Positions 3,924 to 19,028 of a stretch of DNA of 30,314 nucleotides are shown in pieces. Position 1 is the first letter of the stretch, and every line of letters begins with the position of its first letter. This DNA comes from a virus. The DNA is taken from positions 1 through 30,314 of the IMG/VR virus record IMGVR_UViG_3300027974_000112. The stretch is one strand, 5' to 3'. The notes under the pieces are model-generated. The model did not search any database. It saw only the letters and a program-made list of their open reading frames with translations, and was not told where the DNA came from. Both the position numbers and the translations under genes were made by a program.

Positions 3924-3931
3924 TATTTATA
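3924..3931 (-). promoter_or_regulatory. T4-type late promoter box upstream of the gp67-like gene
   Basis: TATAAATA on the minus strand overlaps the last codons of the portal gene and ends 17 bases before the gp67-like ATG. It probably drives the small genes between 3906 and 2651. Confidence 0.72.
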
Positions 3932-5447
3932 ATAAAGTTTCAGTTTTCTTAGGTGTTTCTGTACCACCTAAAGAGTCCATACCTGCAGGTTCATAAGGGC
4001 CTTCTTTACTTATTTGTCTATCTAAATCTTTAATCTCTTTTTCAGACTGTTTAAAAACAAATTTTCTAATGTATTCTTGTGAAAAATACTTACCTACATA
4101 CTTTTCTAAACCATCAGCCAAAGCAACACGTTCTTTTAACATTTCACTTTCTTTTAATTCAGCAAAGTGACCATCTTGTAAAAAGTCGTACTGAATATTA
4201 GATTGTATTACAGGCCAATCATCTATAGATATTACACCTTTTAATACTAACTGTGTCTTTAAAAAATCATTAAATAGTTCAGTAAATTTCTTTCTTAATC
4301 TTTGAACAAACTTAGTAAACTTTAATTCATCTCTTGTAATTTCTGTAGAACGGCCCATACTAAAACCTGTAGCTGGTTCTAATCTACTTACTGGTACATT
4401 TAAAGAACGATAAAGTTTTTTTTGGAAATATTCTATGTCGGCCATTTCTCCTAAATTTTGGCCACCAGGTAGAGTAGTAATATCTGTTCCTCTTCCACCT
4501 TCTCTTGTTGGTAACCAATAATCTTCCAACATATTCATATAACTTCTATCGTCCCTAATTTCTCCTGTGTTGGCATCATAGACAAGTTTATTTCTATAAC
4601 GTGCCATTACATCTCTTAAATATTGTTCTGCCTTTTGTTTAGGTAGATTACCAACATCTATTTTGAAAATTCTTCTTTCAGGTGCTCTTGCTATACGATA
4701 GATAACAACAGCATCTTCAATCATACGTAATTGATTTACTGGTTTAATTGCCTTATGTAAATAAGACAATATCATATTTTTGTTTTGATCTACTAGACCT
4801 GAAGAACAAAATGCAATTGTATCGGCTGCAATTCTTACACCTGAACCTGATGTTGAACCTGCAACACCTTTTTCATTAAACATAAAGTATTCTTCGTAAT
4901 CATTTGTAAGAGATAAATCTACAGTGCTTCTCATCTTCTTAAGCTCTCTTACTTTTTTAATTTTTCTAGGATCAATATAACGTAATTCAGTTATACCGTT
5001 TTTAGGTGTTTCTCTATCAATAATCTTTTGATAAAATATTCTACCATCAACATACCATCTTTTAAATATCTCAAAACCTTTTGTACTAAAATTCATTAAT
5101 TTAAGTACAGTTAAAAATTCTTCGTCTATTCTTTTCTTAACTTCGTTACCAAAAGGTATATTTTCTAATGTAACTCTTACAGAATCTTTTTCTTCACTAG
5201 AAACAATTGCTTCGTTGCAAATATCTTCTATTGCTTGGTCACATTCTGGATGTAATGAAATTTCTCTATATCGTCTTACAAGGTCGGCTTCGTTCTTAGC
5301 CGTTCCTTCCATATCAAGGTACGAACCAAAATACCCTCCAGCAGCGACGGTTGTTGTACCGTCGTCTGCTTGAGGTGTAGTAAAGTTTTGTTTCGGATCT
5401 TGCTCTTGTTTTTTACGGGTTATTGAAAACCCAAACAGATCAGCCAT
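3927..5447 (-). CDS. 20: Portal vertex protein gp20
   Basis: This protein forms the dodecameric ring through which DNA enters the head and to which neck and tail attach. It also nucleates prohead assembly. The 506 residues compare with about 524 in T4. Recognisable gp20 stretches are SLHPECDQAIEDICNEAIVS (residues 65-84), YVDGRIFYQKIIDRE, LRYIDPRKIKKVRE and the region around DYWLPTREGGRGT followed by the LPGGQNLGEM motif. These are the regions used for marine g20 surveys. The gene lies between gp19 and gp67 as in T4. GAGGA precedes the ATG, and no exact TATAAATA is found immediately upstream. Confidence 0.97.
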   Translation of the reverse strand: MADLFGFSITRKKQEQDPKQNFTTPQADDGTTTVAAGGYFGSYLDMEGTAKNEADLVRRYREISLHPECDQAIEDICNEAIVSSEEKDSVRVTLENIPFGNEVKKRIDEEFLTVLKLMNFSTKGFEIFKRWYVDGRIFYQKIIDRETPKNGITELRYIDPRKIKKVRELKKMRSTVDLSLTNDYEEYFMFNEKGVAGSTSGSGVRIAADTIAFCSSGLVDQNKNMILSYLHKAIKPVNQLRMIEDAVVIYRIARAPERRIFKIDVGNLPKQKAEQYLRDVMARYRNKLVYDANTGEIRDDRSYMNMLEDYWLPTREGGRGTDITTLPGGQNLGEMADIEYFQKKLYRSLNVPVSRLEPATGFSMGRSTEITRDELKFTKFVQRLRKKFTELFNDFLKTQLVLKGVISIDDWPVIQSNIQYDFLQDGHFAELKESEMLKERVALADGLEKYVGKYFSQEYIRKFVFKQSEKEIKDLDRQISKEGPYEPAGMDSLGGTETPKKTETLL

Positions 5448-5481
5448 AATTTATATTCCTCTACTACTACTTATATAAGTT

Positions 5482-6009
5482 TTAAGTAGTCGTATTTGTT
5501 TCAAAATACTGATAAGCAAAAGTTACAACAAACTGTTCAATCGCTGTTTGTTCGTCATACGTTAAATCAATAGCGCCGATTTCTTTTGGAAAAGCACCTC
5601 TTAGTGTATATGATTTAACAGTATTACCGTTACGATCTAAGTGGTCAATAAATGCGTCCACTTGATAGTCAGCAGGATTTGTTAATCCTTCATTGTCTGT
5701 CATATTGTTGATACCATTTTGCCATCTTTCAAAAGCATTTCTTACTTTGAAGTTTGTATCGTTATAAACTGTAACGGTCCAATCTGCAAATGTTCTATCT
5801 CCTGCAATCTTAATTGATCGTCCTCTAAACTTAACGTCAACTTCACCGATTGTCATAGCAGGTATAGAAGTTGCTCTACATAAGAAAGCCAGATCTTCTA
5901 TTTCGCCACCAACTTGAGCGTAACCAGGAAAAGGCATTACTACCTTAAACTGATTGGCACGAGCGCCTCCGCCAGCAAGTTTAGCTTTGAAGTCATTAAT
6001 GTTTGCCAT
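5482..6009 (-). CDS. 19: Tail tube protein gp19
   Basis: This is the subunit of the inner tail tube that polymerises on the baseplate and channels DNA. The 175 residues compare with about 163 in T4. Typical stretches are RANQFKVVMPFPGYAQ near the N-terminus, CRATSIPAMTIGEVDVKFRG (residues 44-63) and the C-terminal LTYDEQTAIEQFVVTFAYQY. It follows the sheath gene by 22 bases with AGGAG before the ATG, so it is probably read from the same late transcript. Confidence 0.96.
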   Translation of the reverse strand: MANINDFKAKLAGGGARANQFKVVMPFPGYAQVGGEIEDLAFLCRATSIPAMTIGEVDVKFRGRSIKIAGDRTFADWTVTVYNDTNFKVRNAFERWQNGINNMTDNEGLTNPADYQVDAFIDHLDRNGNTVKSYTLRGAFPKEIGAIDLTYDEQTAIEQFVVTFAYQYFETNTTT

Positions 6010-6031
6010 TTTTTATTCTCCTATTCTAAAA

Positions 6032-7954
6032 TTACCCAGCTACTTCTTCAAAAGAAACGCCAGTTCTTGTTGCTACAAATTGTAAAGTAATGAAGTTAAT
6101 GCTTCTAGCAGGTTTTACAAAAATCTCCGCTATGAATTCATTTCTATCAATTACTTCGCCTGTGTTATTAGTTTCATCACACACTACTAAAAAGTCTGTG
6201 ATACCACGTCTGCCTTGTACTTCTCGTAAGAATGGCTCAACGATATTTCTAAAGTTTGCTCTAGTAAACTCGTCGTTAAATTCAAACAATTGGAATTTAG
6301 AAGCAGTAGAGATTGCTTTTTCTAAAACAATAAACAATCTACGTACATTGATTCTATCAAAAGCAGATGGAGCACTCAATCCAGTTTTATCACCGAAAAG
6401 AACTGTACCTTGTCCAGGAAAAGTAACGACTGCGTTAACTCTATTTCTGTATAGGTCATCTCTTTGTGTTTTATTTGGATTGAAAGCTAACTTAACCGCA
6501 CCTCTAATAGTACCTCTATTAAAGCCAGCTGGTGAATACCAACTGTCGGCAATTAAATCAGTTCTTGCTGATAAACCAGCAATATCTCCGTTTAACGGTA
6601 CAAATCTGTACACGTCATTGTATCTGTCATACTGATATTTGTAACCACTGTCAAATACAACATAAGAAGAAGAACGTATTGAGTTATAAAAACCTACTAC
6701 GTTACTTGTTTGTGTATTTGCGTTTGCCACGTTAACAACATCTGTTCTTCTAGGCGATACAAAAGCAACTGCATCTTTTCTATCTTCTGCAATTGATATT
6801 ACATTATCTACGTGAGTAGCATCGCCTGAACCAGCAATAATTAAACCTACATCCACTGTTTCAGAATCTAGGAATTTTTCGTATGCTGTTTTCTTTTGTG
6901 CAATTGTAACAGCTGAACCATCAGAACCACTTTGTAAAGAAGTTAATGTTGGTGTTGATACTGCTGTATAAGTTGTACCTGATGCAGTATTACCCCAGTT
7001 AGATCCACCAGAATTATGATCCATCCAATATACATACTTTGATCTTGTCTGTATTACTGTTGGATAATAATTTGTGTCACCTTGTGGTGATTTTGCATCT
7101 GAAGCTTTAGAAAGTTTTTGATAAACTTCTAATACTGTATTTGCTGTACCTGAAATTCCACCATCTTCATCTACTACTATTACGTGGATTTCATCATTTG
7201 ATCCACCTTTTGAAGTAGCGTATGGCGAAGTTCCTGGAGCGCCAGCAACTTGATCGTAAAATCTCCATCTACGTCTTATGTTACTGTTTATAACTACATC
7301 TCTTTGTAATCCACCTGTACCTGAAGGATGTCTTACGATAGTTATTACGTTAGTTGATTTAGCAGTAACTCTATACTCGTGACCGTCGTTGTAATCACTT
7401 GTAGAAGCTGTAGTAGAAAAATTAATAATATCACCTACGGCGATATTTGTTCCACTTGTAACTGTTACTGAAGTTGCACCTGCTACTGCAGCTGTACCTA
7501 AAGTTGTTACTACTGTTGTTTCGTATGCAGCTGCTGAAGGACATATAGAAACAAGTAAATTGTTTCCCCAAGCGCCTGCTGTTCTAGCAGCCCACTCGCC
7601 AACTGATCCTTGGCCTGTTGCAAAGTTATTAATATAATCTGTTTCGTTCTTTATAACAAAAGCACTGCCGGAAGCAACTGCGTTTGCTATTGAAGAATTT
7701 TGTGCTCGTACTACTCTTAATGCGTTAGAGTATTGTAAGAAATTGGCAGCACTAAAAAAATCCTCAAAGTTATTTGAGTCTGGCTTACCAAACGTTTCTA
7801 CTAACTCTTGTTCGCTAGAAACCGTTACGATTTCATCTAAAGGACCTTTTCTAAACTCTCCTGCAAAAGCACCAACTGACGTTGATACTGCTGGAATAAT
7901 TCTTGTTAGGTCTCTTTCCTGTACGAGAACACCTGGTGATACTTGAAATGCCAT
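6032..7954 (-). CDS. 18: Contractile tail sheath protein gp18
   Basis: This is the contractile sheath subunit. Its N-terminus, MAFQVSPGVLVQERDLTRII, is the classic gp18 start. The C-terminal region with TKFQLF-type sequence, FLREVQGRRGITDFLVVCDE and INFITLQFVATRTGVSFEE is the conserved sheath core involved in tube contact and subunit linkage. The 640 residues compare with about 659 in T4. The middle third is rich in Thr, Ser and Gly and is the variable, surface-facing part. A late promoter box lies 94 bases upstream and AAGGAG precedes the ATG, suiting a protein needed in high copy number. Confidence 0.97.
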   Translation of the reverse strand: MAFQVSPGVLVQERDLTRIIPAVSTSVGAFAGEFRKGPLDEIVTVSSEQELVETFGKPDSNNFEDFFSAANFLQYSNALRVVRAQNSSIANAVASGSAFVIKNETDYINNFATGQGSVGEWAARTAGAWGNNLLVSICPSAAAYETTVVTTLGTAAVAGATSVTVTSGTNIAVGDIINFSTTASTSDYNDGHEYRVTAKSTNVITIVRHPSGTGGLQRDVVINSNIRRRWRFYDQVAGAPGTSPYATSKGGSNDEIHVIVVDEDGGISGTANTVLEVYQKLSKASDAKSPQGDTNYYPTVIQTRSKYVYWMDHNSGGSNWGNTASGTTYTAVSTPTLTSLQSGSDGSAVTIAQKKTAYEKFLDSETVDVGLIIAGSGDATHVDNVISIAEDRKDAVAFVSPRRTDVVNVANANTQTSNVVGFYNSIRSSSYVVFDSGYKYQYDRYNDVYRFVPLNGDIAGLSARTDLIADSWYSPAGFNRGTIRGAVKLAFNPNKTQRDDLYRNRVNAVVTFPGQGTVLFGDKTGLSAPSAFDRINVRRLFIVLEKAISTASKFQLFEFNDEFTRANFRNIVEPFLREVQGRRGITDFLVVCDETNNTGEVIDRNEFIAEIFVKPARSINFITLQFVATRTGVSFEEVAG

Positions 7955-8048
7955 TTTGGTTTTCTCCTTTTTATAAATTAGCTAATTGTTTCATATAGTC
8001 CAACTGTCGTATTATTCATACGCCCATAGTCAAAATTTCATATACATC

Positions 8049-8056
8049 TATTTATA
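8049..8056 (-). promoter_or_regulatory. T4-type late promoter box upstream of gp18
   Basis: An exact TATAAATA lies on the minus strand in the 118-base gap between gp17 and gp18, giving a leader of roughly 85-90 bases. This is the longest leader among the boxes found here. Confidence 0.75.
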
Positions 8057-8072
8057 AAATGCGTATTTTGTA

Positions 8073-9704
8073 CTAATTTTCACCTCTCCTTGTAACAGGA
8101 TGCCACACTTCTCCATATTCGTCTTTAAAAGGTTTATCTTCTTCTGGTGTACCGTCATCTATAAAGCCAAAAGGCGCCATATCTTGCTCTATGATATTGG
8201 CCTGATCTTCGTATAGTTTAGAACGTACATCAGAATTACTTAACTCTTTAAAGTATGGTTGATTTGATAACCAGCCAAATATAATAAGACAAGTCATTAA
8301 ATCGTCATTACAACCTTCTTCTGCTTTCCAAGAATTGTGTTGACGTGAAAAAGTAGACATTTCTTCTATGATATTAAAATCATTTATAACTATTTTATCT
8401 GCTTCAATAATAGTTTTTAAATTAGAACAACCTATTTTTTTAATTTGTTTAGTCATACGAATACCTAACTGACTGCCTCTACCACTGAAGGCCGTACCTA
8501 ATACTTGGCCAGCTCTACCTCTTTGTGTAGTCATTAATAGATTGTCATACTCTAAATCAAATTGTAATGCGTCTGATATTTGGCCACCTATATCATTTAC
8601 TTCAACCAATGTATGAGCGTGATTATATCCTTTTATAGTTTGTTCAATTACATTCGGAAAAACTAAAGGTTTAATTTCATTGTTACGATATTTGGCTACA
8701 ACACGATAAGGCATTTTTGTTACGTCAAATATAATAAAGGCCGAATAATCTTTTGCAAGACCTCTTGACACGTCAACAGTGCAAACATATATTTTTTCTT
8801 TATCAGGTTTTTCAAATATATCTAAACCACCTTGTGACTGTAAAGGTTTAATATAAGGTGTAGCTTTAATTTTTGTAGGACTAATAAGTGTATCTATTGA
8901 ACCTAAAAATTCACATTCAAACTCCTGTTGGAATTGTTCAGGACTTGTATTTCGTATTGTTTCTTGTTTCCATTTTTCATCTCGTCCTGGAACTTCTGAC
9001 CAATGTACATCAATAGGTATATAATCGTTTTGTTTATTTACGGCATCTGTCCATAACTTATAGTACATATTCATACCGTGAGGTGTAGAAACAATAATCA
9101 TTTTTGTACTTTTACCAGAAGAAATTGTAGGAAACACCGAACTAAAAAACTGTTCTGCAATAGTTGCTGGTACGAAAGCAAACTCGTCTAAGAAGATTAT
9201 ATTATAAGAACCTCCTCGTATCGCACTTGAAGAAGTTGCAGCGGCCACAACTTTACTGCCGTTCTCTAATTCTATATTACCTTTATTCCAGTTTAACACA
9301 CCTTGTTGTAAAAACTTTGGTATATTCTCATAGGCCAATTGTAAACGGCCTAATATATCTCTTGCTGTAGATGATTTGTTTGCAAGTATGGCAACGTTAG
9401 TATTTGGATTAAACAAAACATAATGTAATAGATAAGATACAATTGTTGTTGATTTACCTGACTGTCTTGGTAATTTACATATAGTAAAACGGTTGTTATG
9501 CATAGTGCCAACCATTTCTTTTTGAAAGTTATACATTTTGAAAGGCACTAAACCTAAATCAAGTGAAACTATCTTTACATAGTTTTGTATAAAATATAAA
9601 GGGTCTTTAGAACACTTTTCAAATTCTAAAATTTGTTCTTGTGTAAACTCTACAGGTACGTTTACTTTTTTAAGATTCGGATTACCTAGATAAACTTCAC
9701 TCAT
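8073..9704 (-). CDS. 17: Terminase large subunit gp17
   Basis: This is the ATP-driven packaging motor and headful nuclease. The N-terminal ATPase has Walker A LPRQSGKST (residues 78-86, Lys84) and Walker B IIFLDE (169-174), followed by the coupling motif STPHG (206-210). The C-terminal RNase H-like nuclease shows Asp311 in VCTVDVSRG, Glu368 in LVEVNDIGG and Asp467/468 in CNDDLM. These match the acidic triad of T4 gp17 by spacing and context. The 543 residues are shorter than T4 (about 610). The start overlaps the ParB-like gene by 8 bases. Confidence 0.98.
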   Translation of the reverse strand: MSEVYLGNPNLKKVNVPVEFTQEQILEFEKCSKDPLYFIQNYVKIVSLDLGLVPFKMYNFQKEMVGTMHNNRFTICKLPRQSGKSTTIVSYLLHYVLFNPNTNVAILANKSSTARDILGRLQLAYENIPKFLQQGVLNWNKGNIELENGSKVVAAATSSSAIRGGSYNIIFLDEFAFVPATIAEQFFSSVFPTISSGKSTKMIIVSTPHGMNMYYKLWTDAVNKQNDYIPIDVHWSEVPGRDEKWKQETIRNTSPEQFQQEFECEFLGSIDTLISPTKIKATPYIKPLQSQGGLDIFEKPDKEKIYVCTVDVSRGLAKDYSAFIIFDVTKMPYRVVAKYRNNEIKPLVFPNVIEQTIKGYNHAHTLVEVNDIGGQISDALQFDLEYDNLLMTTQRGRAGQVLGTAFSGRGSQLGIRMTKQIKKIGCSNLKTIIEADKIVINDFNIIEEMSTFSRQHNSWKAEEGCNDDLMTCLIIFGWLSNQPYFKELSNSDVRSKLYEDQANIIEQDMAPFGFIDDGTPEEDKPFKDEYGEVWHPVTRRGEN

Positions 9705-10026
9705 TAATTATAATTCCTTCTATATGTGTATAACCTAATTGTAATGCAGCCTGTATTCGTTGACTGCCTTTCCACACACTATATTTTTTTTCTTTAAAAC
9801 TAGTACCATTAGATCCACTTCTTTGATTTTTATAATCTATCAATGTTTCACCTTTATAATTAATAGGAGAAACGTATGTATTGTGTTTTAATACTTCAAT
9901 AGGTTCTATCATATCTTCACCATTTAACAACTCTTTTAAAGGAGTCGTTCTATCTATATAAGTTAAATCACTTATCTGAAATATCTGTTTCTTCGGATTT
10001 AATGATTGTGCTTTTAATATTTTCAT
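9697..10026 (-). CDS. ParB/sulfiredoxin-like domain protein between the terminase genes
   Basis: This 109-residue protein has a ParB N-terminal-type layout. It has an initial strand and prediction of 'parameters' (ISDLTYIDRTTPLKELL, MIEPIEVLKH), then KYSVWKGSQRIQAALQLGYT, which matches the GxxRxxAAxxLG helix of ParB-like domains, ending in a strand (HIEGIIINE). In this superfamily that helix region binds or cleaves nucleotides or DNA. The gene overlaps the gp16 end by 59 bases and the gp17 start by 8, so it is locked between the two terminase subunits. A role in packaging regulation or end recognition is possible but is inference. No helix-turn-helix domain follows, so it is not a full partition protein. 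Confidence 0.78.
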   Translation of the reverse strand: MKILKAQSLNPKKQIFQISDLTYIDRTTPLKELLNGEDMIEPIEVLKHNTYVSPINYKGETLIDYKNQRSGSNGTSFKEKKYSVWKGSQRIQAALQLGYTHIEGIIINE

Positions 10027-10444
10027 TTTCTCTTTTCAACATTTTTTGCAATTCAGCCGTAGAACCTACAAACAAAGCATTTTTAATATTTTGATTTGCA
10101 GTTTTAGGTAAGTTTTTTAAATCTTTTAATTTTTTTTGTAAGTCTTGTAACTTATCTACTGTTTGTGCAACGTTAGTAATTAATTGGCCTGCTACTTCAT
10201 ATGCTCTTGGATGTTGTCCTTCTTTTGCAATTTCTAATATGCCTTCAATTGCTTCTTGTCCTTTTTGTATAAGATCATAATAATTATCTCTACTATATTT
10301 GTAGTCGTTATCTACATCAGATTTATTTGTATCTTCTATTCTAGGAACAGGAGGATTATCTATCTTAACTACAGATTCTAATGTAGGCTTGTTATCAGGT
10401 TCTATGCCAAGTATTTCGTTTACTTTATCTTCTAGTTTTGTCAT
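9968..10444 (-). CDS. 16: Terminase small subunit gp16
   Basis: This is the DNA-recognition and motor-stimulating partner of gp17. The 158 residues compare with about 164 in T4. The central helical part, YSRDNYYDLIQKGQEAIEGI (residues 49-68) and HPRAYEVAGQLITNVAQTVDKLQDLQKKLKDL, is characteristic of gp16 of T4-like phages and forms the coiled-coil oligomerisation core. The N- and C-termini are charged and probably flexible. The next gene starts 59 bases inside its 3' end. Confidence 0.92.
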   Translation of the reverse strand: MTKLEDKVNEILGIEPDNKPTLESVVKIDNPPVPRIEDTNKSDVDNDYKYSRDNYYDLIQKGQEAIEGILEIAKEGQHPRAYEVAGQLITNVAQTVDKLQDLQKKLKDLKNLPKTANQNIKNALFVGSTAELQKMLKRENENIKSTIIKSEETDISDK

Positions 10445-10448
10445 ATTA

Positions 10449-12080
10449 CTATTTAGTCAACATAATATTTTTTTCTGGAAACCATAGAATATCTATTTTT
10501 GATCTATTAAATACATCTATAGCTTCTTCAGGTGTTTCTACTAAAGGTTCACCAGAGAGATTAAAACTAGTGTTTAGTAATACTGGAACTTTACTTATAT
10601 TATAAAAATGTTGTAACAAATTATATAAATGTGGAATTTGGTTATCTACTGTTTGTATTCTACAAGAATTATCAATATGTACTACGCCTGGTATTTTATT
10701 AGTTTTAGACTGAAATGATATTGTCATAAATGGAGACTCTTCTAAATCAAACATTTCAAAATATTCTTTTGAATATTCTTTTAAAATAGAACAAGCAAAA
10801 GGCCTATACCATTCTCTATTTTTAATTTTATTTATAATCTGTTTTGCTAATTTATTTTCTGCTGAAAATAATATTGATCTATTACCTAATGATCTAGGTC
10901 CAGCTTCAGCTTGTTCATTAAACACAGCTACACTTTTACCTTGATTTAAAAATACAGATATTTGTTTCTCATCTACACTTTCTCCTTTTACATATATATT
11001 ATGTTTTATATTATTAAAAAAAGTGTGTTTCAACTTATGTATGTTTGTATCTTTAGTTTCATTTCTATAAACAAACATAGCAGAACCTATACTGTTTCCT
11101 GAATCATCTGAAAGAGGCTCAAAATAAAAATTAACATTAGGCAAATTTTTTATTAAAAATCCATTAGTAACTACATTCAAAGCATAACCACCAGAAAAAC
11201 AAACATTATGTATACCTGTTTTTTTTACAAATTTTTTAACCAACTCCAAAACAACATTTTGAGTTTGTTTTTGAACTTGATATGCATAATCAGCATATAA
11301 TTCATAGTTTTCTTTTGGTACAGTATCAGTTTGATTATAAAGATATTTTTTTAATATAGGTTGTTTATCATCTCCATTTTTATGTAAAAAAATATTCGTA
11401 TTAGGTAAACCATTTAAAAATAGTTGTTCAAAATCTTTATCTTTTCCATATGCTGATAATCCCATTGTTTTTCCGTTTTCCAAAGGATTTTGACCTATTA
11501 AAGTTGTAGCTGTTTCATAAACTTTTGTAATATTCAAAGTACTATCTGCTTTAATTTCACAATCAGAATATTCTTTTAAAATACTTTTAACTATTTTATA
11601 ATTATCAACGTCATAATTTTCACCTATATTTTTTAAAAAAAAATTTTTATATATTGGTTTAAAATTATTAGGGTAATCAGCAACAAAAACACTTTCACTT
11701 TCTCTCATTTTTTCTTCTAATTCAGCACCGTTTCTATCTATAACAAAACATAAAGCTTTATCAAAACCACTGTTATAAAAAGATAAACTAGCGTGAGCTA
11801 AATGATGATAAGAACAAAATCTAATTACTTTAACATTTAATATTTTTTTTATATAATTTTCCAATAAATCATTAAAATTATCTTTAGGAGTAGGAGAACA
11901 GATAACAACAAAATTTATTTTACCTTTGCTATTTTGTACAGCACACTGCAAGGCTTTAAAAGGTTGTCTATCTCTTTTTATTCTGGTAAGTCTTTCCTCT
12001 TTTGAAAAATATTCAACAACACCATCATTTATTATAGCTACGCTACTATCGTGAGCCGTGGATATTCCTAAAATTCTCAT
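10449..12080 (-). CDS. Carbamoyltransferase, NodU/CmcH/TobZ family
   Basis: Enzymes of this family transfer a carbamoyl group from carbamoyl phosphate, via carbamoyl-adenylate, to a hydroxyl on a sugar or antibiotic. The start MRILGISTAHDSSVAI and the metal/nucleotide motif HHLAHA (residues 92-97), followed by a VIDRNGAE stretch (113-120), mark the N-terminal Kae1-like domain. The C-terminal YrdC-like domain has EAGPRSLGNRS. The 543-residue length fits the full two-domain enzyme. It sits between gp15 and gp16, breaking an otherwise conserved T4 gene run. Similar enzymes are common in marine T4-like phages. The substrate is unknown; modification of a sugar on DNA, surface polysaccharide or a virion glycan are options. 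A near-match box AATAAATA lies 15 bases upstream. Confidence 0.95.
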   Translation of the reverse strand: MRILGISTAHDSSVAIINDGVVEYFSKEERLTRIKRDRQPFKALQCAVQNSKGKINFVVICSPTPKDNFNDLLENYIKKILNVKVIRFCSYHHLAHASLSFYNSGFDKALCFVIDRNGAELEEKMRESESVFVADYPNNFKPIYKNFFLKNIGENYDVDNYKIVKSILKEYSDCEIKADSTLNITKVYETATTLIGQNPLENGKTMGLSAYGKDKDFEQLFLNGLPNTNIFLHKNGDDKQPILKKYLYNQTDTVPKENYELYADYAYQVQKQTQNVVLELVKKFVKKTGIHNVCFSGGYALNVVTNGFLIKNLPNVNFYFEPLSDDSGNSIGSAMFVYRNETKDTNIHKLKHTFFNNIKHNIYVKGESVDEKQISVFLNQGKSVAVFNEQAEAGPRSLGNRSILFSAENKLAKQIINKIKNREWYRPFACSILKEYSKEYFEMFDLEESPFMTISFQSKTNKIPGVVHIDNSCRIQTVDNQIPHLYNLLQHFYNISKVPVLLNTSFNLSGEPLVETPEEAIDVFNRSKIDILWFPEKNIMLTK

Positions 12081-12101: not shown

Positions 12102-12908
12102 TTATTGGTCTATATCAGTCGTAGGGTTATATTTCTTACTATCAGTGTAAGAAGTAATAGTTGTTGTAAATCCAAAATCATCATCAGCGTCAGCTGTAGT
12201 AGGGTCAGGTACTACCACAATTCTTTCTTCTCTTTTTGCCGTTGTTGTATTTGTATCAGTGTAAATATCCGACTGTACAGTTTTAATAACACCTTGATTG
12301 GACATAGGCCCAAACAAATATGTTTTGGCAGTAAAGTTTAAGGTATATATAACGGCCCTACGAGTCGTAAAATCGCCACTATAACTATCTTCATAAGATA
12401 CACTATTTAAAATTATAGGTATATCTCTTTTTATATTCATCTCTGGTAAAACATTTACAGTAATGGTATAATCAGGTTGAAAGAAAGGTAATATCTGTTC
12501 TACTATTTGTAGACCATTTTCCGCTGTAGCCGTAAAAGCATAAAGATTTAAACTTATATTATAAGGTACAGGAACATAATTAAAATTATGAACTTCTCCT
12601 GATTCACCAGCTTTAACTTTTTTAAATTTTTGAACTCTTGTTAATTTTCTTGTAGCGTCATAAGCTAATCCAGAAATTTCAAATCCTAATCTAGGTAAAG
12701 TAACCGCAAAACTACGATCATCTAAATCTGGTTTTTGGTCAAGTCTAACTAAAAACTTTTCTTTTGGTGCATAGGCTAAAGGTACTTTTAATCTTTTAGT
12801 TACGGCACCTGTGCTTGAAGTTGATTGAATAACAATGTTATTAAATAATTGACCAAAGGCAATTATTATTTTTCTCATTCCTTCGTTGTAAAAAAAATTA
12901 CCAAACAT
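12102..12908 (-). CDS. 15: Tail sheath stabiliser / tail terminator gp15
   Basis: This protein caps the finished tail tube and sheath and forms the head-joining surface of the tail. The 268 residues compare with about 272 in T4. The N-terminus MFGNFFYNEGMRKIIIAFGQ (residues 1-20) followed by LFNNIVIQR-like sequence is diagnostic of gp15. Further support is VPLAYAPKEKFLVRLDQ, LPRLGFEISGLAYDATRK and the gp13-14-15 order. The start codon shares one base with the gp14 stop (TAATG), so translation is coupled. Confidence 0.95.
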   Translation of the reverse strand: MFGNFFYNEGMRKIIIAFGQLFNNIVIQSTSSTGAVTKRLKVPLAYAPKEKFLVRLDQKPDLDDRSFAVTLPRLGFEISGLAYDATRKLTRVQKFKKVKAGESGEVHNFNYVPVPYNISLNLYAFTATAENGLQIVEQILPFFQPDYTITVNVLPEMNIKRDIPIILNSVSYEDSYSGDFTTRRAVIYTLNFTAKTYLFGPMSNQGVIKTVQSDIYTDTNTTTAKREERIVVVPDPTTADADDDFGFTTTITSYTDSKKYNPTTDIDQ

Positions 12909-13702
12909 TAGTCAATTTCTCCAAATGGGTTTCTTTCCGTAAAGTCTAATATATCATCAGTTACAGACTGTGTATCAAAACCAGCTTCTGTATCTAAATC
13001 TAAATTTTGTGCGTAAGTAGATTGAGTGGCCACTGTTGTTGTAGTTGTTGCTTCTTCATTGAGTAAGAAGTTAGCTTCACCAGATGACTGATCTTGTTCT
13101 AATTGTAAAGAACCATCTTCATTCTCTAATGTAAATCTGTTATTTAAAAGATTTAAAGAGTATTGAGTTTCTTTATCATCTATTTCCGCAATACCTGTAT
13201 TTAATTCTTCTGAACTATACTCCCAACGTGTTACTCTTAATTTATAAACTGGTAGATTGCCTAATTGAAAAAATGGCTCTTGATCTTCTACGAACTGTAT
13301 TTCAAAAAAACTATTCATTAAAGGAAAATATATAATATCTCCTTCATTAGGACGGCCTTCCACGATCTGTGTCATTGGATTATCTACTTGATTTTGCCAA
13401 CTTCTTTTAGAAATAACAAACGTTGTATCTTCTCTTATTTCTAATCCAAACTTATTGATTAATTCTCTTTGGCCTGCAAATCCTTCAGTCGTTTCAAAAT
13501 ACATTTCAATTAAATAACTATCATCAAATCTACTTGATGTATCCTCACCTAATATTAAATCTCTATTAACTAATGTTCTTGGTAAATAATAAACATCGTG
13601 GCCATATATCTTTAGGCCCTCTACAATTAAATCTTCGTAAAGTGTTTTTTCAGCTTGATTGCCAATACCTTGGCCGCCTTGAAAATAATGATTTACTGGC
13701 AT
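12908..13702 (-). CDS. 14: Neck protein gp14
   Basis: This protein completes the head neck and joins it to the tail terminator. The 264 residues compare with about 256 in T4. Characteristic parts are the start MPVNHYFQGGQGIGNQAEKT, LYEDLIVEGLKIYGHDVYYL (residues 21-40) and the mid-region EGRPNEGDIIYFPLMNSFFE. A Ser/Thr/Gln/Glu-rich segment near residues 195-240 is the variable part. It is coupled to gp15 downstream (one-base overlap) and lies 4 bases after gp13. Confidence 0.95.
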   Translation of the reverse strand: MPVNHYFQGGQGIGNQAEKTLYEDLIVEGLKIYGHDVYYLPRTLVNRDLILGEDTSSRFDDSYLIEMYFETTEGFAGQRELINKFGLEIREDTTFVISKRSWQNQVDNPMTQIVEGRPNEGDIIYFPLMNSFFEIQFVEDQEPFFQLGNLPVYKLRVTRWEYSSEELNTGIAEIDDKETQYSLNLLNNRFTLENEDGSLQLEQDQSSGEANFLLNEEATTTTTVATQSTYAQNLDLDTEAGFDTQSVTDDILDFTERNPFGEID

Positions 13703-13706
13703 AGTA

Positions 13707-14519
13707 TTAACCTACTAAAAATGCTGGTGCTAATTCAAAACTATCTCTAATTTCTTTTTCTAATTTTTCAACGTCTGTAATTGCATCAGTATAAATTTTT
13801 TCACCATTTAATTTAACTCCGCCAATCATAGTTACTCCATCAAATTTACTTAGATTAGCTCCCCATTGTTTTTTAAATAATGCCGTAACATATCTTTTTA
13901 ACCATTGGTCATTAAATACGTCTGTGTATGTTGTTGGATCTAATTTACGATAACAGTCTATAATTAAAAATTCTCCAACTTCTAAATCGTGTACCCAATC
14001 CATATCAATATACAAACGATTATCGTGTTGTTGAAATCGTATAGGTTTTATACCTACTAATATTTGATCTAAGAAATCTAAATGTCTTAACACCATATCA
14101 TAATTAATAATAGATGTTGAAGCAAAATCGTAAAGGTCATTTAAACGTAATTGGTATCTTACGTCAAACATATTCATACTAGCTTTATCTGAAAATGGAA
14201 ATATATTAGTCACACCAATAACTGTTTCAGGAACTACTAAGAAATTGCTTCCTTCATACCAAGTAGATGAAACGGAATTTTTAGTGGCCGTTTCTGTTGA
14301 ACCTAAAGACGCTTGTAATCTGGCTTTATCTGTTTCTGTTACTTGATATTTTAAATATGTTCGTCTAATACCATCATAGTGATATTGAGCATAAAATTGT
14401 AAGGCTTCGTCCAGTCTATCTTCTAACTGGTCGTCATCAGCATTAATCTCTATAACTGGTTTACCTAATGCTCTTAAAGCATATTGTTTAAGTGTTTCTC
14501 GTGTTGCTGGAGTTGCCAT
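13707..14519 (-). CDS. 13: Neck protein gp13 (head completion)
   Basis: This protein binds under the portal and, with gp14, seals the filled head. It starts MATPATRETLKQYALRALGK, followed by DQLEDRLDEALQFYAQYHYD (residues 25-44), both typical of gp13. The 270 residues are shorter than T4 gp13 (about 309), as is usual in marine relatives. An exact late promoter box stands only 9 bases before the ATG, so the transcript leader would be nearly absent. It may instead be translated mostly from a read-through message from the upstream porin gene. Confidence 0.94.
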   Translation of the reverse strand: MATPATRETLKQYALRALGKPVIEINADDDQLEDRLDEALQFYAQYHYDGIRRTYLKYQVTETDKARLQASLGSTETATKNSVSSTWYEGSNFLVVPETVIGVTNIFPFSDKASMNMFDVRYQLRLNDLYDFASTSIINYDMVLRHLDFLDQILVGIKPIRFQQHDNRLYIDMDWVHDLEVGEFLIIDCYRKLDPTTYTDVFNDQWLKRYVTALFKKQWGANLSKFDGVTMIGGVKLNGEKIYTDAITDVEKLEKEIRDSFELAPAFLVG

Positions 14520-14545: not shown

Positions 14546-15646
14546 TTAGAACTTATATCGTATTGTTGCTAATAATTGAGGGTTATAATCTTTATAAACA
14601 CCTGTATATACTGATGTTTGTTCTTTATCGTGATAATACAAACCAAATTCTAAACCTGCTCTTTTATCTGGTCGTTTATGTTTATCATCTTCTGTATGTA
14701 TATTATAAACAAGTCCATAATAGTTACCTGTAAATCCTAGGTCATCATTTTCTGTTCTATGAACAGTGCCATAAATCTTTTCATTAAAACTATACAATAC
14801 ACCATAATCATATCTGTTCTTATCAGCAAAACCTGTATCTTTATCGTCCCAAACTTCTGCACCCCATATTAAAGGAATATCCCAACGATATAAACTACCA
14901 CCTAATGACCAGCCTTGTTGTGTTCTTTCATTAAAACTAGAAACACTTGTTGAACTTTTTGGATTTTTAATTTGCATATAAGATAAATCAGCATAACCAA
15001 ATAGTCCTACCGTTGCACTTGTATATAAAGCATCTCTCTCGTTATCCCAACCTACAACTAAACCTACTGGCAAATCTTGTCTTAATCTATATGAATCAAA
15101 ATCAAATTGTTCGTCCCAATTAAAACCACCAATCGCAAGAACTGTTTTCTCTCTATGATCTATCCTTGAATTTGTTTGTGTAATAATTAATGGTGCACCT
15201 ATTTTTGGTGTTTTAGCAAATCCTAATCTTTGTGCGTCTGTTTCACCAAGATATAATCTGTAATAGTCATTACCAAATCCCATTTGTTTTTCTTGTATCG
15301 TATTATTTAAAGAAGTATCTAAAGAATAATGAGTATCATACAACATTGAAGCACCCGTCCAATTTACGTATTGATTATTAAACTTGTGTGTAATGCCTAT
15401 TTGTAATTCTGCTCTTGTATCTAAACCACTATCATAAGTACGGTCATCATAATAACCTTCAACTTCACCTGTAATAAAAAGGCCTTTAGGTAATGATATT
15501 TTGTTTGTTTCTAATTGTGATATTCTTTTCTCTAATTCAGATATTTTCTTTTCATCTGCTTTTACTATTGAAGTTAAAAGTAAAACAAGTAAAAATAATA
15601 GAATAACTGCAACGTATTGTATTGTCAATTTCTTATCTAATTTCAT
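14546..15646 (-). CDS. Predicted outer-membrane porin (16-strand type)
   Basis: This 366-residue protein has a Sec signal peptide: Lys-rich start, a hydrophobic core at about residues 11-28, and a likely cut after IVKA (residue 30). A short coiled coil follows (ISELEKRISQLE, 35-46). The rest alternates aromatic/hydrophobic and polar residues in amphipathic strands, for example LFITGEVEGYYDD, RAELQIGITHKF and YYRLYLGETDAQRLGFAKT. It ends ATIRYKF with a C-terminal Phe, the signal for outer-membrane barrel insertion. Length and pattern fit general porins of Gram-negative bacteria. It follows the bilin reductase by one base. Phage-encoded porins are rare; altered permeability, receptor masking or superinfection exclusion are possible roles. 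A near-match late box (GATAAATA, 15652-15659) precedes it. Confidence 0.85.
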   Translation of the reverse strand: MKLDKKLTIQYVAVILLFLLVLLLTSIVKADEKKISELEKRISQLETNKISLPKGLFITGEVEGYYDDRTYDSGLDTRAELQIGITHKFNNQYVNWTGASMLYDTHYSLDTSLNNTIQEKQMGFGNDYYRLYLGETDAQRLGFAKTPKIGAPLIITQTNSRIDHREKTVLAIGGFNWDEQFDFDSYRLRQDLPVGLVVGWDNERDALYTSATVGLFGYADLSYMQIKNPKSSTSVSSFNERTQQGWSLGGSLYRWDIPLIWGAEVWDDKDTGFADKNRYDYGVLYSFNEKIYGTVHRTENDDLGFTGNYYGLVYNIHTEDDKHKRPDKRAGLEFGLYYHDKEQTSVYTGVYKDYNPQLLATIRYKF

Positions 15647-15647
15647 A

Positions 15648-16331
15648 TTAAGTATTTATCTTTGGAAAAAGATGGTCTCTATTAAAGGCTATTACATCTT
15701 TTTCCTCTAAACCTAAAGATAACATAACTCTAGGTGTATGTGGATTTTGTTGTTGATATTCACAGTAGTAATTCTGTGCCTTTATAACATCTTCTTGTTT
15801 TGAATCGTTTTTAAAGTTAACAATTTTATCTAAGTAATTATGTAAATTACTTTCGGCCATTGTTGTGACTTGGAACAATTCTTCTTCTGTTTGTATATTA
15901 CCAGCGGCAATCATACCACCACTAAAGATGGCCTTTGCCCAATCTGGTAACTCTCTCTCTTTACTCGGTTTATACCATTTTGTTTCATTGATAAACCAAT
16001 TCGTCAATGGGTGTTCTTTTTTAAGTAATGGTGAAAAATCGTGGAATGCACCCGTTACTTTATTCTTACCTGCAATTACATCAAATCCATATATTGGGCC
16101 ACCATTTGTAAGGCCAGGAAATAAACAAACGTGCATCATCCAAAGACCTTTTGTTTCTCTGGCATCAACCACGTCAACGTGTGCTCGTCTTATGTTATCA
16201 TTTTTCCAGGTTCGGTTAACCCATCCTTCTTTATTAAATCGTGTCATACCTTCCTCAAAGTATTCTGTACAATTTAAATCTAATATGTCTATGATATTAT
16301 TCTTGCACTGTATAAGATTTTCCCAAATCAT
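15648..16331 (-). CDS. pcyX: Ferredoxin-dependent bilin reductase, PcyA/PcyX-like
   Basis: Enzymes of this family reduce biliverdin IX-alpha with electrons from ferredoxin to make phycobilins. The 227 residues fit the family. The core runs from residue 50 (AHVDVV) through GLWMMHVCLFPG and GPIYGFDVIAGKNKVTGAFH to DFSP (98-101). The C-terminus NPHTPRVMLSLGLEEKDVIA plus a FNRDHLFP ending is also typical. Compared from memory with Synechocystis PcyA, His67 and Asp84 match His88 and Asp105 with the same 17-residue spacing, and Asp53 seems to stand where PcyA has Glu76. This resembles the viral PcyX clade described from oceanic phages, reported to make phycoerythrobilin. The start lies 35 bases inside the heme oxygenase gene. 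PcyX rather than PcyA is an inference; the family call is firm. Confidence 0.93.
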   Translation of the reverse strand: MIWENLIQCKNNIIDILDLNCTEYFEEGMTRFNKEGWVNRTWKNDNIRRAHVDVVDARETKGLWMMHVCLFPGLTNGGPIYGFDVIAGKNKVTGAFHDFSPLLKKEHPLTNWFINETKWYKPSKERELPDWAKAIFSGGMIAAGNIQTEEELFQVTTMAESNLHNYLDKIVNFKNDSKQEDVIKAQNYYCEYQQQNPHTPRVMLSLGLEEKDVIAFNRDHLFPKINT

Positions 16332-16875
16332 TCATTTCCTTAAATAGTTCTGTAGCATACTCAAAACATAATTTAGCTTCAGCGACCACGTTTACTTGAT
16401 ACGTGTTCATATAGTTATTTATTAACTCTCTTACAACTCTTTTTGTTTCTTCTGGTTTTAAAAAAACAAGATATGTATTAGGACCAGGAGTTTTTCTTTT
16501 TATCATTTGACCACCATATAAATCTCCCATATGTCTTACATAGATATGAGCATATAATTTTTCGGCATCACTTTTAATTGTATCTAAGTGATAAACGTAT
16601 CTTAATGTGCTGTCTGTTATATGTGGTTTATTCGGTTGATTCCATAATGAACGAAAGTCGTGGTCTATTTTTTGTGCTCTGTCAAGGCCAGGTGTTTGTC
16701 TAAACAGGCCGTTTTCAAAGGCATATTTTTCTAGTGTTGAATAACACTGTAATAGATTAAAAAGATATGTAGCATAAAGGTCTGGATTGATCTGGCCAGA
16801 CATAAGAGTTTGAACAAAAGGCTCCGATTCGGCCTTTTTATGTTCTTCTAAAGTTAAATCTTTTATACTATTCAT
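16297..16875 (-). CDS. hemO: Heme oxygenase (biliverdin-forming)
   Basis: This enzyme cleaves heme to biliverdin, Fe(II) and CO, using ferredoxin or another reductant. The all-helical 192-residue protein has LTLEEHKKAE with the expected proximal heme ligand His12. It also has the distal-helix motif RHMGDLYGGQ (residues 114-123), whose Gly-rich kink lines the heme pocket. TYLFNLLQCYSTLEKYAFEN is the usual second-helix region. Its end overlaps the bilin reductase by 35 bases and its start overlaps an oxygenase gene by 8, so the set is translated together. Product and substrate pair exactly with the next gene. Cyanophage ho1 genes have the same function; this copy more likely matches the non-cyanophage HemO partner of PcyX. 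Confidence 0.95.
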   Translation of the reverse strand: MNSIKDLTLEEHKKAESEPFVQTLMSGQINPDLYATYLFNLLQCYSTLEKYAFENGLFRQTPGLDRAQKIDHDFRSLWNQPNKPHITDSTLRYVYHLDTIKSDAEKLYAHIYVRHMGDLYGGQMIKRKTPGPNTYLVFLKPEETKRVVRELINNYMNTYQVNVVAEAKLCFEYATELFKEMNDLGKSYTVQE

Positions 16876-17506
16876 TCACACCTATAGGATTAGTATAAAA
16901 GAAATGAGTTATAGTGTATCTACCATATCCTTTATTTTTATTTGTATTTAACAATTTTATAGGATTAACTTGATGAAGATAAAAAGATGGAAAAATACAC
17001 ATTCTATTATGTTTTGATGTTATTATTGTATCCGATTCTGTAAAAGAAAAATCTCCTCCTTCATAACTTTTTGGTTCTTTATAAAACCAAATTAAACAAG
17101 TAAATAAAAAAACATCATAATGCTCCTTATAGTAATCATTTTCCTCGTAGTAAGAAATTAATGATGATGAGTGTGTTGTATCTTTGAATACTCTACCCAT
17201 TGGCAAAGCTTTTTCTAAAAGACTATGAAATTGTTTAGTTTGTTGTTTATACATACAGAAAAATATATTTGAATAACTACGGTTATTATATATTTCTTCC
17301 ATATAAATTCTAAAAGAAGAACTTTTAGAATTTCCAAAATCATCTTGAGCTGTTACTGTATTTTCTGATCTAAGTAAGTTGCGAGAATTATTTAAAAAAT
17401 TTAATTCATTCCATATTAAAATTTCCTCCTCTTTATTGTACCAATTATCTATCAATAAAGCAGGACATTTTCCTTTAACTTCAATAGGAACCCATTGTGT
17501 ATTCAT
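16868..17506 (-). CDS. 2-oxoglutarate/Fe(II)-dependent oxygenase, third copy
   Basis: Members of this superfamily hydroxylate proteins, nucleic acids or small molecules using 2-oxoglutarate and O2. In this 212-residue protein the metal triad is visible: His129 and Asp131 in KEHYDVFLF, and His178 in FPSFYLHQVNP. Arg196 in GYGRYTITHFF is positioned to bind 2-oxoglutarate. EGGDFSF (149-155) is the typical strand of the double-stranded beta-helix. It starts 3 bases after the previous oxygenase and overlaps heme oxygenase by 8. The substrate is unknown. Confidence 0.9.
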   Translation of the reverse strand: MNTQWVPIEVKGKCPALLIDNWYNKEEEILIWNELNFLNNSRNLLRSENTVTAQDDFGNSKSSSFRIYMEEIYNNRSYSNIFFCMYKQQTKQFHSLLEKALPMGRVFKDTTHSSSLISYYEENDYYKEHYDVFLFTCLIWFYKEPKSYEGGDFSFTESDTIITSKHNRMCIFPSFYLHQVNPIKLLNTNKNKGYGRYTITHFFYTNPIGVNE

Positions 17507-17509
17507 TTT

Positions 17510-18277
17510 TTACTCAATAATCTTTTTTTTACTAAAGCTGCCTGGCAATCCTAACATAGGTCTTCCATCATATATGTTATCGTTAGAATTATTTTTTTCA
17601 TTATAATGTAAAAATACTTGTGCGTGATTTTTGCCTATAAAAGGTTCTCTCCAATGTTCAATATCACAACCTCTATAAATTAACATATCTCCTGGTTTCA
17701 TATGTATAGGTAATTCCTTACCGTCAAATGTTTTTACAAACATAGGCCAATCCCAATTAGGATATTTTTTAGTATCTACGTTAGATATATCGTAACCTAA
17801 ACACAAAGTTGTGGATATTTCACAACTTTTTCTATCAATATGTTTTTTTAATTCAGTACCTGTGGTATATAATCTATGATAAGAATATGTTGGCACTAAA
17901 TCTTTGTTTGTATACATATTCATTTTATTAAGAGATTCAGCTAATAAAGAATCAAAAATTAAATCACCATAATGACTATAATCTCCTAAAGCTTGCGGAT
18001 CATTAAAGTTTCCCCAAATAGATTTATCTACCTTACCTTCTCCATAAACTTGTTCCAAAAATGATAACCTTTTAGCGGCCGTTAATACGTGTGTATATAA
18101 TAGTTTAGCAGTTTCTTTATTAATAAAATTTTCAATTTTAACCCAACCAAAAGTATTAAAAAAAACAGAAGCTGGATGTTCTTCTATTTTAATATTATTA
18201 ATCTGACCTAATTGTGAATTGGCATATTTTTTTTGTTCTTCTGTTAAATTTTCCCAATTTTCTATATTATTATTCAT
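17510..18277 (-). CDS. 2-oxoglutarate/Fe(II)-dependent oxygenase, second copy
   Basis: This is a 255-residue protein with an N-terminal segment of about 50 residues before the fold. The likely iron ligands are His146 and Asp148 in ELKKHIDRKSCEIS and His208 in CDIEHWREPF. The segment MKPGDMLIYRG (193-203) is the usual strand before the second His. The C-terminal VFLHYNEK stretch closes the fold. It differs from the other two copies, so it is not a recent duplicate. Similar proteins are common in marine T4-like phages. The substrate is unknown. Confidence 0.88.
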   Translation of the reverse strand: MNNNIENWENLTEEQKKYANSQLGQINNIKIEEHPASVFFNTFGWVKIENFINKETAKLLYTHVLTAAKRLSFLEQVYGEGKVDKSIWGNFNDPQALGDYSHYGDLIFDSLLAESLNKMNMYTNKDLVPTYSYHRLYTTGTELKKHIDRKSCEISTTLCLGYDISNVDTKKYPNWDWPMFVKTFDGKELPIHMKPGDMLIYRGCDIEHWREPFIGKNHAQVFLHYNEKNNSNDNIYDGRPMLGLPGSFSKKKIIE

Positions 18278-18284
18278 ACTTTTC

Positions 18285-19028
18285 CTATCTAAAAGGTTTA
18301 CCTAATGTCCACATTACCAAAGAATATCTTGTTCCTTTTGTAACTGGTGTTACTTGATGATGCACATAAGAAGGAAACACAATAATTGAACCTTGTGGCC
18401 GTATTTCAGTACACTCATAAAATCTTTTATTACTAGAATGAGGTCCAAAATCAAATTTTAAATTTCCTCCTTCATAACTTCCTGGTTCAGATAAATTAAC
18501 AGTCATACTTAATTTTCTAACTTTACCTATCATGTTAACATTATCTGTGTATCCGTGGTCTGGAGTTCCATTTTTTCTTTCAGGAGATATTCCTGGTATA
18601 AATCTTTTATACTTTCCAATATGATCTGAAGAACCATCAGAATGCCAACCATAAAATTGATTTAATCCGTATTTGGTAAATTGTATTTCCTCAGAAATAT
18701 CATAATCGTATTTCCATCCAGCGGCTTCATTAGCTTGATCTAAATAAGGTCTCAATAATTTATAAATCCAATCTTCATTGAACCAAGTTACTTCACTATC
18801 TCTAACATAGATTTCTGAATCTGTTTTTAATTCTTCAAAAGATTTATCATTTAAAGGTATGGAATTTAGTTTATCTTGTTTATGATGATTTCCAAAAGTT
18901 GTAGCGGAAGTGTCTATTCCTAAAGTTTTTTCTTTTTCAATTTTATTAATACCTAATTGTAAAATTTTTTGACAAGTTTCTTTAGGAATTATTCCTGAAA
19001 AATAATAATAAATGTTTTCAATGTGCAT
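18285..19028 (-). CDS. 2-oxoglutarate/Fe(II)-dependent oxygenase, prolyl-hydroxylase type, first copy
   Basis: This 247-residue protein has the clearest prolyl 4-hydroxylase (PKHD)-type motifs of the three. They are GWHSDGSSDH with His129 and Asp131, SYEGGNLKFDFG (184-195), GSIIVFPSYVHHQVTPVTKG with His224 as the second metal ligand, and Arg234 in TRYSLVMW for 2-oxoglutarate. The expected reaction is hydroxylation of a peptidyl or small-molecule substrate. It heads the run of three oxygenases that leads into the heme oxygenase and bilin reductase genes. The substrate is unknown. Confidence 0.93.
   Translation of the reverse strand: MHIENIYYYFSGIIPKETCQKILQLGINKIEKEKTLGIDTSATTFGNHHKQDKLNSIPLNDKSFEELKTDSEIYVRDSEVTWFNEDWIYKLLRPYLDQANEAAGWKYDYDISEEIQFTKYGLNQFYGWHSDGSSDHIGKYKRFIPGISPERKNGTPDHGYTDNVNMIGKVRKLSMTVNLSEPGSYEGGNLKFDFGPHSSNKRFYECTEIRPQGSIIVFPSYVHHQVTPVTKGTRYSLVMWTLGKPFR

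Follow-up and report, generated by a model that had tools for sequence, protein, structure and literature searches.

Cassettes that pair a heme oxygenase gene (hemO) with the gene for a ferredoxin-dependent bilin reductase (FDBR) of the PcyX type (pcyX) were reported in pelagimyophage contigs in 2024, together with a gp13 phylogeny, and the main text of that account calls their purpose 'still enigmatic' (PMC11480375). The same main text describes hemO-pcyA/X-valaS cassettes with these two genes in pelagimyophage contigs, and states that PcyX had until then been found in marine viruses alone (PMC11480375). Freshwater pelagimyophages with predicted Fonsibacter (LD12) hosts have also been reported (PMC7029224). 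The two-enzyme part of the cassette has a cultured relative with a host, Pelagibacter phage Mosig EXVC030M (MT647606.1), which infects Pelagibacter HTCC1062.

Here we analysed an IMG/VR virus record of 30,314 bases (the window, meaning the whole stretch of DNA), which carries the known hemO-pcyX cassette in a freshwater version extended by a gene for a predicted porin. The two enzymes should turn heme into a pink pigment that absorbs light. We know of no use of such pigments by SAR11-type hosts, and hemO-pcyX in a SAR11-type phage is therefore odd. The question addressed is why phycobilins are made by viruses whose hosts are non-photosynthetic bacteria, and the porin, as a conserved third gene, offers a physical, testable handle on this puzzle. 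The original prediction had implied that such a pair in a T4-like neighbourhood was new; this part has to be given up, since the cassette in its pelagimyophage setting is already published (main text of PMC11480375).

Organisation of the gene block

All window genes described here lie on the minus strand. The gene pcyX (15648-16331, 227 aa) overlaps hemO (16297-16875, 192 aa) by 35 bp, and the predicted outer-membrane porin gene (14546-15646, 366 aa) begins 1 base past the pcyX stop. Together with the porin gene, three genes of the 2OG-Fe(II) oxygenase type (16868-19028) complete the block around hemO-pcyX; the original prediction noted neither the porin gene nor these three. The first (16868-17506; Pfam 2OG-FeII_Oxy_3, E=1.3e-8) overlaps hemO by 8 bp, the second (17510-18277) encodes a probable 2OG-Fe(II) oxygenase with a match to PHROG 2954 (E=5e-44) and an HID...H pattern in its sequence, and the third (18285-19028) has a Pfam match at E=5.9e-12. 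Immediately downstream of the block are T4-like gp13, gp14 and gp15 (neck, tail-sheath stabiliser; 12102-14519; PHROG and Pfam), followed at 3927-10444 by terS, terL, tail sheath, tail tube and portal, assigned by PHROG, Pfam DNA_Packaging and colinearity with Mosig. Adjacent, overlapping heme oxygenase and bilin reductase genes in T4-like surroundings, as originally predicted, were thus recovered: both products score above the curated Pfam cut-offs, and portal, sheath, terL and gp13-gp15 were found by Pfam or PHROG.

A NodU/Nol-type carbamoyltransferase gene (10449-12080; Pfam E=7e-53) between gp15 and terS is outside the cassette, and is missing from this position in most close relatives having both flanks. 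This stretch is low in GC, at about 25-27%.

The family of the 17510-18277 product is named 'ferrochelatase' in PHROG 2954 and 3531, and Mosig_00059 is labelled likewise. No ferrochelatase match was found for this product in Pfam, and the label is probably a misnomer, as the protein resembles a 2OG-Fe(II) oxygenase in sequence; it is possible that the misannotation has spread through phage databases.

Identity of the two enzymes

The 15648-16331 product matched the Pfam family Fe_bilin_red with E=1.1e-18. It aligned over its full length with the solved PcyX (PcyX_EBK42635, 5owg), which comes from a marine metagenome, with E=2e-107, compared to 6e-14 for PcyA. In a maximum-likelihood tree of 55 reductase rows, with the references on long branches and in an uncertain order among themselves, the window reductase fell within a 47-row PcyX clade (support 100/99) that includes 5owg and Mosig, while cyanobacterial and cyanophage PcyA, PebS, PebA and PEBB were placed outside it. 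The earlier view of PcyX/HemO as the closest match agrees with these values, and the reductase lies in neither the cyanophage PebS nor the PcyA clade.

The residues and motifs quoted in the original prediction (His67, Asp84, GFDVIAGKNKVTG and NPHTPRVMLSLGL) are all present. Asp53, His67 and Asp84 of the window protein align with Asp55, His69 and Asp86 of PcyX, so that 5owg shares the Asp/His/Asp triad; the window protein is 2 residues shorter near residue 35. At the first of these catalytic positions every PcyA reference has Glu and the window has Asp, as do 72 of the 82 aligned rows. PcyA identity was rejected because Asp stands at the Glu76 position of the Glu76/His88/Asp105 triad and the tree excludes the PcyA clade; Glu76 is also absent in PcyX (PMC10151467). 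PebS identity was rejected as well, since the reductase does not group with PebS/PebA, and PebS has Asn at the His88 position where the window has His67. Given the PcyX clade, the 5owg match and the Asp53/His67/Asp84 triad, the product of the window reductase should be phycoerythrobilin (PEB).

Two PcyX-clade FDBRs (L171:4268-4984 and L172:4301-4984) carry Glu at the PcyX Asp55 position, with the gene order kept. The PCB product of the phage CB_2 enzyme has been tied to loss of PcyX Asp55 in the main text of PMC11480375, and these Glu-type enzymes may yield PCB instead of PEB.

For the 16297-16875 product, the Pfam Heme_oxygenase domain was detected with E=2.6e-18, and heme oxygenases in the PDB were matched with E=2e-11. 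Both the proximal histidine (His12) and the GDLYGGQ motif of the distal helix, at 117, are intact, so that the protein has the Pfam domain, proximal His and GDxxGGQ distal helix of HO-1-type enzymes. Judged from sequence, the identity of the two enzymes, taken alone, is hardly in doubt, and their predicted chemistry is near certain.

Phage type, host and freshwater occurrence

The Mosig block is colinear with the window, in the order 2OG oxygenases-hemO-pcyX-gp13-gp14-gp15-terminase-sheath-portal, with 71% identity for pcyX and 59% for hemO. The structural genes of the two phages keep their order, mostly at 50-80% identity, as expected of pelagimyophages. The two differ in that Mosig has no porin gene, and in that Mosig was isolated at Bermuda (Devil's Hole), whereas relatives of the window come from freshwater lakes. 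An alphaproteobacterial host, as first proposed, is well supported by this colinear cultured phage. We consider the window phage to be a T4-like freshwater pelagimyophage, with freshwater SAR11/LD12 as its probable host. The fonsimyophages PMP-D are likewise freshwater pelagimyophages with a predicted LD12 host (PMC7029224); they were compared through the text of that paper, which mentions no heme oxygenase, bilin reductase or porin. In a search for tRNAs that might match a host, none was found in the window or in two longer relatives. A tmRNA is encoded in Mosig (111467-111805) and in a further related record (G029, L266:282-678).

A role in picocyanobacterial infection, with the bilins sustaining phycobilisomes, has been proposed for cyanophage PebS and PcyA (main text of PMC11480375). 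For the window such a role is extremely improbable: the reductase falls outside the PebS and PcyA clades, the nearest isolate is colinear and infects Pelagibacter, and psbA was found in none of 40 related records by a search that detected it in the positive control P-SSM2. The lack of psbA argues against a photosynthetic host, and against a photosynthetic pigment role. A cyanophage origin was rejected on the basis of the tree, the colinear gene order shared with Mosig and the search for psbA.

Habitats were assigned only for contigs whose IMG IDs appear in PMC8245535 and PMC7527133. Lake Tanganyika contigs (3300021091, 3300020197) contribute rows to the nine-row PcyX subclade of the window (97/86), and contigs from 3300021093 and 3300020578 are close relatives with identical gene order; all four IDs are listed in PMC8245535. 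In 3300020159, which is Lake Erken (PMC7527133), hemO is 98% identical to that of the window. A freshwater setting is thus shown for the clade, in which the window is placed through its relatives, and this clade brings PcyX-type genes into freshwater.

Recurrence and selection

In a pattern search of IMG/VR, relatives were encoded in 514 of the 515 matches, and hemO was within 2.5 kb of the FDBR gene in all 62 loci with sufficient upstream sequence; a search of plasmids for FDBR gave no match. Median dN/dS against relatives (Nei-Gojobori, partly near saturation) was 0.075 for pcyX, 0.105 for hemO, 0.129 for the porin and 0.142 for gp13. These low values indicate that all four genes are kept functional and, along with the pattern matches and the 62 loci, that the hemO-pcyX pair is not due to chance.

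In four loci (L011, L012, L020 and L021) an extra ORF lies between hemO and pcyX. This was considered as alaS and rejected, as it reads as a 2OG-Fe(II) oxygenase. Among the 40 related records, alaS was present in one alone, a 177 kb contig (G011) with a 5-aminolevulinate synthase gene at 4676-5842 (L258), about 3.3 kb past the FDBR gene, in the known valaS arrangement; unlike the published hemO-pcyA/X-valaS cassettes, the freshwater relatives searched had no alaS. A flavin-dependent tryptophan-halogenase gene separates hemO from pcyX in another lineage, made up of large phages (L236:5435-6955, Pfam 1.7e-89; L237:8105-9598).

A predicted porin next to pcyX

The 14546-15646 product had no Pfam or PHROG match. 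An AF2 model built from 34 homologues (pLDDT 77.7) superseded an earlier, poor model from 14 sequences (pLDDT 59), and predicts a 16-stranded barrel; the protein also has a signal-peptide-like N-terminus, a short coiled coil and a C-terminal Phe. The family (A2) is conserved, and the C-terminal Phe is invariant in alignments A1 and A2. Foldseek matched the model to OmpF, OmpC and OmpK36 (E=4e-9), and residues 52-366 align with these general porins of the same 16-stranded fold with Z of about 22 and an rmsd of about 3 A over about 275 residues, although identity is only 10-13%. On the strength of the model, the product is a 16-stranded outer-membrane porin of the OmpF type, and a putative channel.

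Among 70 loci recruited with FDBR, pcyX is immediately followed by the porin gene in 31 and by gp13 in 38. Conversely, of 34 porin-recruited contigs of at least 20 kb, 22 carry an FDBR gene and 12 do not, in counts that include near-duplicates and many contigs that are fragments. The porin accompanies the hemO/pcyX pair in no fewer than three genomic settings among phages: pelagimyophages; a second lineage (L035, L055, L171 and L172) in which gp13 is not nearby; and a third group (L200, L207, L183-186 and L195) with a Mosig-like ribonucleotide reductase, in which pelagimyophage structural genes were undetected. The porin gene is right behind pcyX in two of these unrelated contexts and one gene further in L200. 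DNA similarity between L035 and freshwater pelagimyophages extends from the pcyX ATG to just beyond the porin stop, so that pcyX and the porin behave as an exchange unit.

Two readings of this association were weighed. The porin may be a hitchhiker with a role of its own, in nutrient entry or superinfection exclusion, unconnected to heme or bilins; we rate this at only a little short of an even chance. The 12 long porin contigs that have no FDBR gene, the Mosig cassette without porin and the wide variation in porin sites favour such a role, and the recurrence after pcyX in unrelated contexts and the shared DNA block of exactly pcyX plus porin speak against it. The second reading, which we hold as doubtful, is that hemO-pcyX-porin forms a mobile functional unit exchanged between unrelated phages of heterotrophic bacteria, with the channel coupled to heme breakdown and bilin production. 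If this were true, a phage-made outer-membrane channel could, for example, import heme or iron chelates, or export bilin. The porin is absent from the complete Mosig genome and the 177 kb G011, and is therefore optional and not essential to the cassette. As far as the literature searched shows (for PMC11480375, its main text), the extended hemO-pcyX-porin unit is undescribed, and a search there for accounts of similar phage porins found none.

A search of an annotated phage collection gave no porin match. In a collection of bacterial genomes without Pelagibacterales, the sole match was a 3.3 kb MAG contig (L145, isolate SI054_bin67), and another 57 genomes from the class of this MAG gave none, so assignment of a host through a bacterial porin was abandoned. 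On that contig, which may be either viral or bacterial in origin, the porin lies beside SufS-like and SufE-like genes (230-2624; SufE-like by eye). An ORF resembling, by eye, an A-type Fe-S carrier (IscA/SufA) was seen near a porin with no nearby pcyX (L201:4296-4604).

Proposed role of the cassette

In our preferred explanation, to which we assign a probability of roughly 50% overall, hemO and pcyX would be co-expressed with the three Fe(II)/2OG oxygenases and the porin, as their same-strand, overlapping or abutting arrangement suggests. HemO would cleave heme to biliverdin, CO and Fe2+, and PcyX would use four electrons from ferredoxin to convert biliverdin to phycoerythrobilin, pulling HemO forward by draining its product. 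The gain would be the liberated iron, usable by phage ribonucleotide reductase and Fe(II)/2OG oxygenases, rather than the pigment, and the porin would keep the outer membrane of the infected cell open to small solutes, possibly iron chelates. Both enzymes need reductant, and a 2Fe-2S ferredoxin encoded by the complete Mosig genome and by a further related record (G013) is therefore counted as a candidate electron donor.

Taken by itself, the iron-release role is tentative, at less than an even chance. We favour it because 2OG-oxygenase genes lie beside or between hemO and pcyX (adjoining hemO in both the window and Mosig), and because the second lineage has an FTR1 iron permease gene 1.4 kb after hemO-pcyX-porin (L035:9186-9812, Pfam 2e-13). 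This FTR1-type permease is common to the L035, L055, L171 and L172 contigs; its absence from pelagimyophage contigs and Mosig counts against the iron role. The oxygenase adjacency argues only weakly for iron, since such genes are abundant throughout Mosig. The Glu-type reductases of L171 and L172 keep the same gene order, which may mean that removing the bilin counts for more than which product is made. Against the iron role, iron release is possible without a bilin reductase, and the strong purifying selection on pcyX and the prevalence of Asp at the Asp53 position fit selection for the product too.

The same two observations, with pcyX dN/dS below that of gp13, would be expected if the pigment itself matters, with PEB (PCB in Glu-type relatives) serving as a chromophore or a light or redox signal for a bilin-binding protein in a non-cyanobacterial host. 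The PcyA of freshwater phage CB_2 supplies a working phytochrome in vitro (main text of PMC11480375). We nevertheless regard a pigment role as rather unlikely, as psbA was not found in the related records and neither a phytochrome nor a phycobiliprotein gene is annotated in the complete Mosig. A CpeT search gave no match, and the same search also missed the annotated cpeT of the control, P-SSM7.

Less likely still is that the infected cell is protected by bilins serving as antioxidant or electron sink, with PcyX using up surplus reduced ferredoxin, as the Fe2+ freed by HemO would itself drive oxidative damage. This reading draws on the peroxiredoxin, rubrerythrin, glutaredoxin and glutathione synthetase encoded by Mosig, and on the altered redox-related genes seen upon PEB build-up in Synechococcus (PMC13197396).
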